A stretch of 64,000 bases of DNA from Methyloversatilis universalis EHg5 (lineage in GTDB: Bacteria > Pseudomonadota > Gammaproteobacteria > Burkholderiales > Rhodocyclaceae): NCBI RefSeq assembly GCF_000378945.1, contig NZ_KB900539.1, positions 2,499,234 through 2,563,233 of the forward strand. The letters are read 5' to 3'. Numbering within the stretch: the first letter of the stretch is position 1; each line of letters starts with the position of its first letter. The notes beneath the pieces were generated by a model. That model had not been told where the DNA came from, did not search any database, and saw only the letters and a program-made list of their open reading frames with translations. The position numbers were made by a program, and so were the translations under genes. Of the stretch, positions 56,713-64,000 are shown in pieces.

Positions 56713-56726
56713 TGGCGGAAGCTGTG
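56713..56726. other. attR within the 3' end of tRNA-Ser
   Basis: TGGCGGAAGCTGTG is the reverse complement of the tRNA 3' acceptor and T-arm end including CCA, and is identical to 45614-45627. The tRNA remains complete after integration, as is usual for tRNA-targeting integrases. Confidence 0.75.
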
Positions 56727-56802
56727 AGATTCGAACTCACGAACGCCTTGCGACGTTGCCGGTTTTCAAGACCGGTGCATTCAACCACTCTGCCAAGCTT
56801 CC
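56713..56802 (-). tRNA. tRNA-Ser (anticodon UGA)
   Basis: A 90-nt minus-strand gene with encoded CCA. The acceptor stem pairs GGAAGCT with AGCTTCC, and G73 and CCA follow. The anticodon stem-loop is CCGGT-CTTGAAA-ACCGG, giving anticodon TGA. A long variable arm (CAACGTCGCAAGGCGTTCG) and T-arm GTGAG-TTCGAAT-CTCAC identify a class II serine tRNA reading UCA and related codons. Its 3' end is the integration site of the neighbouring element. Confidence 0.97.
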
Positions 56803-57690: not shown

Positions 57691-57784
57691 CCGCGGGGTT
57701 CCGGGTCTGACGGCTCGTGTTCGATCAGCGCCGCGCGACTTCCCAGGAAGCATCGCGGCGAGGGCGCCGCTTGTATGTTCATCT

Positions 57785-57965
57785 ACGGCAAGCGTAGTAG
57801 TGGACGCTTGTCGGGCGGAGGGACGAGCGCCGCATCTGACGGCAAGCACGTACAGACAGTGGGAGAGATGTCCCGCCTTCACCCCCGAGCACCGATGAGG
57901 AATCCTTCGGACCGCGTCTGACCCGGTACCGACCATATCCTGCAAGCCTGTGCCCAGGTGACCCC
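57785..57965 (+). ncRNA. Candidate bridge RNA of IS110 copy 1
   Basis: The non-coding left end can fold into successive stem-loops. The first loop (stem GGC..GGGAC at 57814-57824 with GTCCCGCC at 57870-57877) contains GCGCCGC (57827-57833), identical to the target left of the insertion point, and GTGGGAG (57859-57865), the complement of CTCCCAC at its right including the CT core. This is the order expected of left and right target guides. A second hairpin region (57885-57950) would hold donor guides; GAATC at 57900-57904 matches the element's right end. Boundaries are approximate. Confidence 0.62.
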
Positions 57966-58001
57966 GACAAGCCCTTCAACCATAGTCCGGAGGTGCTCAT
58001 C

Positions 58002-58967
58002 GTGACAAGTCAGACCGAATCCCCCCGCTTTGGCATCGACGTCTCCAAGCGCTGGCTGGACATCGCCGAGTACGGCCGCTCGCCGGTGCTGCACATCGAC
58101 AACACCGCCCCGGCCATCCGCAGCTGGCTGCGCACCTTGCCCCCGAGCGCCTGCCACATCGCCTGCGAATCCACCGGCACCTACCACCGCGCGCTGGTCG
58201 AGCTGCTCATCGGCGCCGGTCATCGGGTGTATCTGATCGACGGCTACACGCTGTCCAGATACCGCGACACGCTGGGCCAGCGCGCCAAGACCGATCGGCA
58301 CGACGCGGGGCTGATCGCCCGCTATCTCGCCCACGAAGGGGCGCGTCTGCGCCCGTTCTCGCTGCCGCCCCGTGCGGTGACCGACCTGCGCGCCCTGCTG
58401 CGCCGTCGCGCCACCCTGGTGCGTTGCCTGGGCCGCATGCGTCAGAGCATGGAGGAGCTGCCCGGCTTCGCCCGCCAGGTGCGGGCCGTCACCGAGCGGA
58501 TCCAGGCGCTGATCAAACGGCTGGAACAGCGCATCGCCGCGCTGATCGGCACCAGCGGCTGGGAGGACCCGTATCGGCGCATCCTGAAGGTTGAAGGCAT
58601 CGGCGCACTCACCGCCGCCGGTCTGTGCGCCACGCTTCACCGCGCCCCATTCTGCCGGGCCGATGCCTTCATCGCCTTCCTCGGTCTGGATGTGACCGTG
58701 CGCCAATCGGGCACCCAGCGCGCACGCGGGGTGCTCAGCAAGAAGGGCGATGCCGAGATGCGCCGCCTGCTCTACAACGCCGCCATGGCGGCCAGCCGAT
58801 CCAGTACCTGGCAGCCCTTCTACCAGCGCATGCTCCAGCGCGGATTCAGCCGCACGCAGGCGCTGGTCGCGCTGGCCAGAAAGCTCGCAAGGGTCGCCTT
58901 CTCGCTAATGAAGAACGCCTCCGACTACGTCCCTCAACAACACGAAAACGCTTGCGCTCGAACATAG
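58002..58967 (+). CDS. IS110-family transposase (DEDD + Tnp_20), copy 1
   Basis: A 321-residue recombinase with GTG start 8 bases after GGAGG; an in-frame GTG at 57993 adds three residues. The RuvC-like DEDD domain contains FGIDVSKRWLDIA (first Asp), CESTGTYHRAL (Glu) and KTDRHDAGLIARYL (Asp-x-x-Asp). The C-terminal Transposase_20 domain has ILKVEGIGALTAAGLCAT and the Ser-containing AASRSSTWQPFYQRMLQRG, LVALARKLARVAFSLMKN. All catalytic residues are intact. Differs from copy 2 at 9 residues. Confidence 0.96.
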   Translation: MTSQTESPRFGIDVSKRWLDIAEYGRSPVLHIDNTAPAIRSWLRTLPPSACHIACESTGTYHRALVELLIGAGHRVYLIDGYTLSRYRDTLGQRAKTDRHDAGLIARYLAHEGARLRPFSLPPRAVTDLRALLRRRATLVRCLGRMRQSMEELPGFARQVRAVTERIQALIKRLEQRIAALIGTSGWEDPYRRILKVEGIGALTAAGLCATLHRAPFCRADAFIAFLGLDVTVRQSGTQRARGVLSKKGDAEMRRLLYNAAMAASRSSTWQPFYQRMLQRGFSRTQALVALARKLARVAFSLMKNASDYVPQQHENACART

Positions 58968-59085
58968 AATCTCCCACGGGTGTTCGCAGTCTGTCGCCAG
59001 ATTCGTGGGAGCGGCGCCCTCGCCGCGATACGACCCCTGACTACGCACCGGTGCCCTACGACAAGCCGGGCATCCGGCCTGCCCC

Positions 59086-62564: not shown

Positions 62565-62776
62565 ATTGGTGCTTCAGAATGGGGGCTTCAAATTCTGCAG
62601 CCCGGGTCATCGAAGCATCGACAGCGCTTCAGGAATCTCTGAAGCGTCTCCATGCGCACCAAGAACACTGCGTACCTGATCTCTTAGCTGCATCCTGACC
62701 GGATTTCCGGCAGGGAATGGGCAATCGCTCTCAGCGCAGGCCTCATCGCGGCGAGGCGCCGCTTGTATGTTCATCT

Positions 62777-62957
62777 ACGGCAAGCGTAGTAGTGGACGCT
62801 TATCGGGCGGAGGGACGAGCGCCGCATCTGACGGCAAGCACGTACAGACAGTGGGAGAGATGTCCCGCCTTCACCCCCGAGCACCGATGAGGAATCCTTC
62901 GGACCGCGTCCGTCACGGTACCGACCATATCCTGCAAGCCTGTGCCCAGGTGACCCC
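62777..62957 (+). ncRNA. Candidate bridge RNA of IS110 copy 2
   Basis: Corresponds to the copy 1 candidate. Both target guides are unchanged (GCGCCGC at 62819-62825, GTGGGAG at 62851-62857). Differences from copy 1 are one base near 62802 and a short block (CGTCAC for TGACCC) near 62911-62916, which lies in the presumed donor-loop region and could be compensatory or neutral. Boundaries are approximate. Confidence 0.6.
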
Positions 62958-62993
62958 GACAAGCCCTTCAACCATAGTCCGGAGGTGCTCATC

Positions 62994-63959
62994 GTGACAA
63001 GTCAGACCGAATCCCCCCGCTTTGGCATCGACGTCTCCAAGCGCTGGCTGGACATCGCCGAGTACGGCCGCTCGCCGGTGCTGCACATCGACAACACCGC
63101 CCAGGCCATCCGCGGCTGGCTGCGCACCTTGCCCCCGGGCGCCTGCCACATCGCCTGCGAATCCACCGGCACCTACCACCGCGCGCTGGTCAAGCTGCTC
63201 ATCGGCGCCGGTCATCGGGTGTATCTGATCGACGGCTACACGCTGTCCAGATACCGCGACACGCTGGGCCAGCGTGCCAAGACCGATCGGCACGACGCGG
63301 GGCTGATCGCCCGCTATCTCGCCCACGAAGGGGCGCGTCTGCGCCCGTTCTCGCTGCCGCCCCGTGCGGTGACCGACCTGCGCGCCCTGTTGCGCCGTCG
63401 CGCCACCCTGGTGCGTTGCCTGGGCCGCATGCGTCAGAGCATGGAGGAGCTGCCCGGCTTCACCCGCCAGGTGCGGGCCGTCACCGAGCGGATCCAGGCG
63501 CTGATCAAACGGCTGGAGCAGCGCATCGCCGCGCTGATCGGCACCAGCGGCTGGGGCGACCCGTACCGGCGCATCCTGAAGGTTGAAGGCATCGGCACAC
63601 TCACCGCCGCCGGTCTGTGCGCCACCTTCCACCGCGCCCCATTCGGCCGGGCCGATGCCTTCATCGCCTTCCTCGGCCTGGATGTGACCGTACGCCAATC
63701 GGGCACCCAGCGCGCACGCGGGGTGCTCAGCAAGAAGGGCGATGCCGAGATGCGCCGCCTGCTCTACAACGCCGCCATGGCGGCCAGCCGATCCAGTACC
63801 TGGCAGCCCTTCTACCAGCGCATGCTCCAGCGCGGATTCAGCCGCACGCAGGCGCTGGTCGCGCTGGCCAGAAAGCTCGCAAGGGTCGCCTTCTCGCTAA
63901 TGAAGAACGCCTCCGACTACGTCCCTCAACAACACGAAAACGCTTGCGCTCGAACATAG
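62994..63959 (+). CDS. IS110-family transposase (DEDD + Tnp_20), copy 2
   Basis: A 321-residue intact transposase, 97% identical to copy 1 with 9 substitutions (for example Q for P in NTAQAIRG, K for E in ALVKLLI, F for L in CATFHRAPF). DEDD residues and the C-terminal Ser-containing motif are unchanged. Both copies therefore look active or recently active. Confidence 0.96.
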   Translation: MTSQTESPRFGIDVSKRWLDIAEYGRSPVLHIDNTAQAIRGWLRTLPPGACHIACESTGTYHRALVKLLIGAGHRVYLIDGYTLSRYRDTLGQRAKTDRHDAGLIARYLAHEGARLRPFSLPPRAVTDLRALLRRRATLVRCLGRMRQSMEELPGFTRQVRAVTERIQALIKRLEQRIAALIGTSGWGDPYRRILKVEGIGTLTAAGLCATFHRAPFGRADAFIAFLGLDVTVRQSGTQRARGVLSKKGDAEMRRLLYNAAMAASRSSTWQPFYQRMLQRGFSRTQALVALARKLARVAFSLMKNASDYVPQQHENACART

Positions 63960-64000
63960 AATCTCCCACGCGCCCTCTCCCACATACCCTCTTCACTGTT

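Follow-up and report, generated by a model that had tools for sequence, protein, structure and literature searches.

Bridge RNAs, their guides and the covariation of guides with targets have already been published, with repetitive extragenic palindromic sequences (REPs) scored among the targets of IS621 from Escherichia coli (passages of PMC11208160). The IS621 RNA consists of a 5' stem-loop followed by two loops, one for the target, whose closing stem contains a bulged A, and one for the donor; the catalytic residues of IS621 are D11, E60, D102, D105 and S241 (sections of PMC11208158). That particular insertion sequences target REPs was already described in 2006, with ISPpu9, ISPpu10, ISPa11 and others inserting into them (parts of PMC1525189), and possible guides of ISPpu10 and ISPa11 are shown, going by a figure legend of PMC11208160. 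The ISPa11 transposase has been purified with RNA, and the upstream non-coding region of the IS110-family element ISEc21 yields a 74-nt target-finding seekRNA, directed at a conserved coding region of IS3-family elements; the same source states that natural re-programming occurs among relatives (excerpts of PMC11187229).

The window, a stretch of 64,000 nucleotides from Methyloversatilis universalis EHg5, contains an IS110-family element of 1.2 kb (57770-58972) with an intact recombinase gene. Its features are best explained by an insertion sequence of the IS110 group with RNA-guided target choice, a reading to which we assign a probability of about 0.95; the limits, target, guides, helices, tracking and recombinase homology behind it were read from sequence, and transcription, RNA binding, cleavage and strand exchange would proceed as in published work on IS621. 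The mechanism and REP targeting are thus not new in themselves, and this element is the new part. Our literature search found no paper joining Methyloversatilis with repetitive extragenic palindromic sequences, which leaves absence from print unproven.

The element resembles IS621 in its left-end RNA with a 5' stem-loop and two looped stem-loops, in the order and strands of the guides (as far as described in sections of PMC11208160 and PMC11208158), in the CT core, the CTTGTAT left end, the right donor guide GCAAG (IS621 locus L202) and the catalytic residues, and in the TTG-17-TAT layout of the candidate junction promoter. REPs are targets of both (for IS621, passages of PMC11208160), but the REP entered here has another sequence, in line with the preliminary description. 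The right target guide matches 7 bases, whereas that of IS621 is described as matching 4, and more in other orthologues; the left guide leaves the core T unpaired, whereas the published IS621 guide pairs the second core base. By description, the element can also be likened to the REP-inserting ISPpu9, ISPpu10 and ISPa11, and set apart from ISPa11, which is treated as an IS1111-type element with its RNA downstream of the gene. It shares the upstream RNA region with ISEc21, but not the kind of target.

The limits and the gene are as follows.

57770-57771, plus strand: CT core of the left junction; the end, CT followed by TGTATG, is kept in 9/9 genomic copies and in the clade relatives scored
57993-58967, plus strand: IS110-family recombinase of 324 amino acids, with PF01548 and PF02371
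58964-58972, plus strand: right junction, with the left donor ATAGAAT before the CT core at 58971-58972

The recombinase matches PF01548 at 79.1 bits, PF02371 at 65.3 bits and the NCBIfam model transpos_IS110 at 182.6 bits (cut-off 140). Compared with solved structures, it aligns to IS621 (8wt6, E 1.1e-24) over residues 12-318 of 324 and to ISCro4 (9t56, E 1.1e-22) over residues 12-320. Residues D16, E59, D101, D104 and S239 are invariant across all five rows of alignment A1 and, assuming an inferred two-residue numbering offset in the PDB chain, align to the five catalytic residues of IS621. The non-coding left end is long, with 223 bases upstream of the gene, and the right end is short, with 3 bases from the stop codon to the right-end core. 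The predicted DEDD RuvC domain, the Transposase_20 domain with its putative catalytic serine and this asymmetry of the ends place the element in the IS110 group of the IS110 family. Assignment to the IS1111 group was rejected, as the RNA would then sit downstream of the gene, in those 3 bases. The recombinase also weakly matches a TIGR-Tas endonuclease model (30.6 bits, under the cut-off of 100). A link between IS110 and TIGR-Tas has reportedly been published.

The target site can be reconstructed from the following features.

57752-57769, plus strand: left part of the interrupted REP, with the left target GCGCCG directly before the core; rejoined with 58971-58977 it equals the partner REP
58973-58977, plus strand: right target CCCAC, the remainder of the interrupted REP
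59005-59029, minus strand: intact partner REP of the doublet
62762-63964, plus strand: second copy of the element in the window, with unchanged target guides and the target GGCGCCG-CT-CCCAC

The window target reads ...GGGCGCCG-CT-CCCAC. The rejoined flanks (ATCGCGGCGAGGGCGCCG + CT + CCCAC) match the partner REP in reverse complement at all 25/25 bases, which fixes the insertion point independently and indicates that this copy occupies one half of a REP doublet. The partner REP serves in place of an empty allelic site, which was sought in congeners: between the same two flanking genes, neither an element nor, by eye, a REP was seen in the 11 congeners read (gaps of 76-130 bases). These 11 come from a genus search that matched 13/13 genomes, including that of the window, and hence 12 congeners, G005 being left out.

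The left end is present in nine genomic copies, seven complete and two matched in part. All nine are inserted at GCGCCG-CT, followed by CCCAC in eight and by CCTAC in one, so that none of them pairs these guides with an unrelated site, the case raised earlier as a possible refutation. The second copy in the window lies ~5 kb downstream of the first in a different REP, and its left end is 98% identical. Uninterrupted exact GCGCCGCTCCCAC sites number 115 in the genome, compared with 2 for the reversed control. The genome also holds two genes with a Y1_Tnp domain, L200 (G000:C1:2181479-2181715) and L201 (G000:C1:2230890-2231228), the former between REP sites at 2181154 and 2181823; they are possibly REP-associated transposases that spread the REPs.

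The copies bear on the alternative that survives best, namely that this is a bridge-RNA element which has decayed and is no longer mobile. One of the nine (L005) does carry a 17-bp duplication in the recombinase gene that splits the reading frame, and two others (L008 and L009) cannot be judged, having runs of N inside the element. In six copies, however, residues 2-324 are matched free of stops at 96-100% identity, and the left ends of the seven copies in which they are full-length show 98-100% identity, as expected of recent spread. We therefore consider decay unlikely.

Under the preferred reading of a mobile, RNA-guided element, the left end should contain guides for both sides of the target, and two candidates are found there.

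57826-57834, plus strand: left target guide AGCGCCGCA (positions 1-7 and two core-facing bases); 6/7 non-core positions equal the target
57859-57865, plus strand: right target guide GTGGGAG, the reverse complement of CT+CCCAC

The preliminary description had placed GCGCCGC at 57827-57833 and GTGGGAG at 57859-57865 in one stem-loop. Both positions hold, and both motifs lie inside the target-binding stem-loop at 57813-57878. Its account of the left motif, as the target up to and into CT, stands for GCGCCG and the core C but fails at the core T, which the guide does not match; the guide also has an A opposite the outermost target base, a mismatch. The right motif is the claimed reverse complement of CT and the five bases to its right in all 7/7 positions. 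Among 5,000 shuffles of 57772-57992 that preserve dinucleotides, 2.4% contained GCGCCGC, 2.5% contained GTGGGAG and none had the pair in the observed order 10-60 nt apart, which agrees with the earlier view that both would rarely occur by chance. Since the two motifs were picked after the target had been seen, tracking of guides with targets across relatives is the stronger test. The predicted target guides thus match opposite strands on either side of the core and into it, the match being partial at the core. Candidate handshake bases are C at 57947, which fits the target G, and A at 57866, which fits the donor T; position 7 is nearly invariant in the set, with a misfit in L158.

The guides are embedded in a predicted RNA with the following parts.

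57786-57813, plus strand: 5' stem-loop of the predicted bridge RNA, with a 10-bp stem of -16.1 kcal/mol (0/200 shuffles as stable)
57813-57878, plus strand: target-binding stem-loop, closed by pairing of 57813-57821 to 57871-57878, A 57819 being bulged
57835-57856, plus strand: inner stem-loop, within the target-binding loop; UCUG 57835-57838 pairs with CAGA 57853-57856 in the fold
57880-57960, plus strand: donor-binding stem-loop

Folded alone, the RNA of the window copy is not unusually stable as a whole (z -0.68), and its structure of lowest energy is not the conserved one; such single-sequence folding of the whole left end is uninformative, and the two-loop structure was taken from alignments. 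In isolation, the target stem-loop is not unusually stable either (z -0.83), and the donor stem-loop is mildly so (z -2.10). The 5' stem-loop is based on folding. A covariance model was built from 14 clade members, including the window copy, on alignment A2, because five other MAFFT alignments (A3-A7), which were rejected, put the 3' strand of this stem in the wrong place in the target loop of the Methyloversatilis rows. The model covers the window left end at 57770-57974. Its test set beside the window comprised 26 loci, 15 of them clade members held out from building and 11 more distant. A bridge-RNA covariance hit had been proposed as a check, which this clade-built model covers in part: all 15 held-out members were matched, with compensatory pairs, and none of the 11 distant loci at E 10. 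Among these 11 are IS621 and four loci retrieved with its protein, whose own proteins are 43-82% identical to that of IS621; the two groups of RNA therefore differ strongly in sequence.

Support for the structure comes from pairing and covariation in a 29-row alignment that was fitted to the model and hence leans towards it: 96.0% of cells pair, compared with 83.4% in shuffles; 14/20 pairs are changed on both sides (8.0 in shuffles); and the covariation score is 0.416 (0.186 in shuffles). When the structure is slid along this alignment, only 39-52% of cells pair. The helix that closes the target loop (helix 1) is paired in 99.6% of cells, with 5/8 pairs changed on both sides. Helices 2, 3 and 5 of the donor stem-loop also contain pairs changed on both sides, while helix 4, a single pair, is invariant. 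Pairing of the inner stem is kept, by eye in alignment A8, as UCAG/CUGA (L074), UCGG/CCGA (L076) and UGGG/CCCA (L159). RNAalifold's own prediction gives 17 pairs on the 29-row alignment, 11 changed on both sides, and 20 pairs on a plain MAFFT alignment of the 14, 9 changed on both sides. These comparisons suggest that the left end has the layout of a bridge RNA, a 5' stem-loop followed by two internally looped stem-loops, with covariation behind the two loops. Searching Rfam at gathering scores over the whole window gave no match on the element RNA and returned a single feature, a tRNA gene on the minus strand at 56716-56802; on 57700-58050, three matches appeared at E 0.82 or worse, far below gathering scores. 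A viral scan found 3 distant relatives, which entered no count.

If the loops guide insertion, guides should change with targets among relatives. Element ends were set from conserved terminal motifs, independently of the guides. As relatedness inflates permutation tests, the set was thinned to distinct targets and guides. In this thinned set, where some relatedness persists and each register is the best match within the loop, not one fixed beforehand, left guides match their own targets at a mean of 5.88/7 positions against 4.28 when permuted (n = 24), and right guides at 5.47/7 against 4.22 (n = 17), each with 0/10,000 permutations as high. The own target is best or tied for 17/24 left and 11/17 right guides. 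Before thinning, the values were 5.87/7 against 4.36 (25 distinct target-loop groups) for the left and 6.06 against 4.72 (24 groups) for the right, each with 0/2,000 permutations, in a set of 63 records scoring at least 280 bits that includes repeat fetches of the same places. The unthinned set left out L008, L009, L066, L072, L073, L131, L162; of these, L066 and L162 were restored in the thinned set, together with L074. The anticipated following of target changes by guide changes is seen on both sides, and the preliminary interpretation is supported.

Individual loci illustrate the tracking. L066 has ATTCCCG on the left and a right guide GCGAAAG for CTTTCGC, and L161 and L162 combine the right guide GTAGGAG with the target CTCCTAC. 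Within one genome (G001), L040 has guide AGTCCG and target AAGGCCG, and L041 and L042 have guide AGCTCG and target AAGCTCG. Exceptions are L046 and L163, whose left guides match at 3/7 and 4/7, and L156, whose best match is out of the usual register. Over 30 non-independent guide-target combinations, left-guide mismatches fall mainly at position 1 (14), 4 (8) and 2 (6); IS621 tolerates a mismatch at position 4 (passages of PMC11208160).

A second alternative holds that the recombinase protein, or the shape of the REP hairpin, picks the target, and that the RNA only regulates the recombinase gene. REPs fold back, and the leader immediately precedes the gene. ISPpu9, which also inserts into REPs, is regulated by two small RNAs and by structure in the 5'UTR of its mRNA (parts of PMC8450116). 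However, five loci with the same RNA layout (L058, L066, L128, L130, L159) have targets other than the window REP, and their left guides match these at 7/7, which makes purely regulatory action very improbable. A regulatory role in addition to guiding may exist. We return to the preferred reading, in which the left-end RNA very probably carries guides matching the REPs that the element enters, as judged from the matches above.

Bridge RNAs also read the ends of their own element, and features of this kind, together with a promoter-like sequence split between the two ends, are additions to the preliminary description, as is the second copy at 62762-63964.

57897-57904, plus strand: left donor guide GAGGAATC, against the element right end ATAGAATC
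57942-57946, plus strand: right donor guide GCAAG, pairing CTTGT with a G.T wobble at the last base, after the pairing scheme in PMC11208158
57772-57776, plus strand: right donor bases
58952-58957, plus strand: -35-like half, TTGCGC, of which only TTG agrees with the sigma-70 consensus
57774-57779, plus strand: TATGTT, the -10-like half of a promoter that only the circular junction would create

Donor scoring took in 40 chosen loci, 38 with a readable right end and 37 with both donor end and donor guide; the losses are L045, which has a different donor guide region, and two loci without a right end in the data, L074 and L153. In 37/37 elements, the four bases of the left donor guide next to the core agree with the donor end and follow it through four states (GAAT, GGAT, GAAC, GGAA), under search patterns that presuppose the general shape of both motifs and leave only two of the matched positions free to vary. 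Farther from the core, the guide of the window copy shows one mismatch and two G.T wobbles. The right donor guide is GCAAG or ACAAG in 39/40 rows, and AU directly before it may pair with the next two bases; this side provides no covariation test, because CAAG was imposed by the pattern and the left end hardly varies. The predicted donor guides thus match the joined ends of the element itself, on the left by tracking. At the junction, TTG sits at a fixed place in 36/38 elements with a 17-base spacing, and TATGNT is found in 38/38, its TAT being partly imposed by the motif that locates the end. The -35 varies beyond TTG, TTGACA itself occurs in 3/38, and both hexamers are weak in the window copy. 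Read by the same layout, IS621 locus L202 gives TTGCAG-17-TATTAT.

The remaining alternative, in which the two 7-mers match by chance or stem from REP sequence taken up by the left end and guide nothing, draws on REP-like words being common in so REP-rich a genome, but it has next to no chance of being correct given that relatives with non-REP targets have matching guides at the same place, that guides track targets and that the left donor guide matches the donor end too.

The proposed mechanism can be described as follows. Once the element is excised as a circle, its two ends would join at ATAGAATCTTGTATG and form the promoter TTGCGC-17-TATGTT, from which the left end would be transcribed as a bridge RNA of ~180 nt. 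In its first loop, the left guide GCGCCG would read one REP strand and the right guide GTGGGAG the other, covering the CT core and CCCAC, while the second loop would read the joined ends of the element. The recombinase, with its DEDD RuvC site and catalytic serine, would then exchange strands at the CT cores, so that every insertion into a REP would have the same orientation with respect to the repeat.

The locus offers a natural pair of recombinase and guide RNA whose four guides, donor ends and target are readable from sequence, and its RNA falls in a sequence group left separate from IS621 by the covariance model. Its clade also supplies ready-made natural cases of re-programming, with two guide-target pairs in a single genome among them, and points to left-guide positions where mismatches seem to be tolerated, mostly 1, 4 and 2. 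The pattern of left guides moving between REP variants within the genus (GCGCCG, AGCTCG, AGTCCG, CGCCG), with the right guide fixed on the invariant REP tail, is supported by these loci. As for its cause, we lean slightly towards a bridge-RNA family that lives on the REP doublets of its Methyloversatilis hosts and shifts its left guide among REP stem variants, some guides (AGTCCG) appearing to serve two variants by tolerating position 4, so that host repeat diversity and element guides would evolve together.

Several loci show individual peculiarities. L044, L045 and L047 of genome G002 have guide AGTCCG at two REP variants, AGCCCG and AGGCCG, which differ at position 4. L131 seems to have its right end and target flank in a tandem repeat (two ...GAACCTCAGACATGCG... 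blocks). Outside the genus, L157 and L160, from two genomes of another family in the class, share the target guides of the window copy, AGCGCCGCA and GTGGGAG, and lie at a REP-like target resembling its own; at the L157 site, position 4 differs by a base that gives a G.T wobble.
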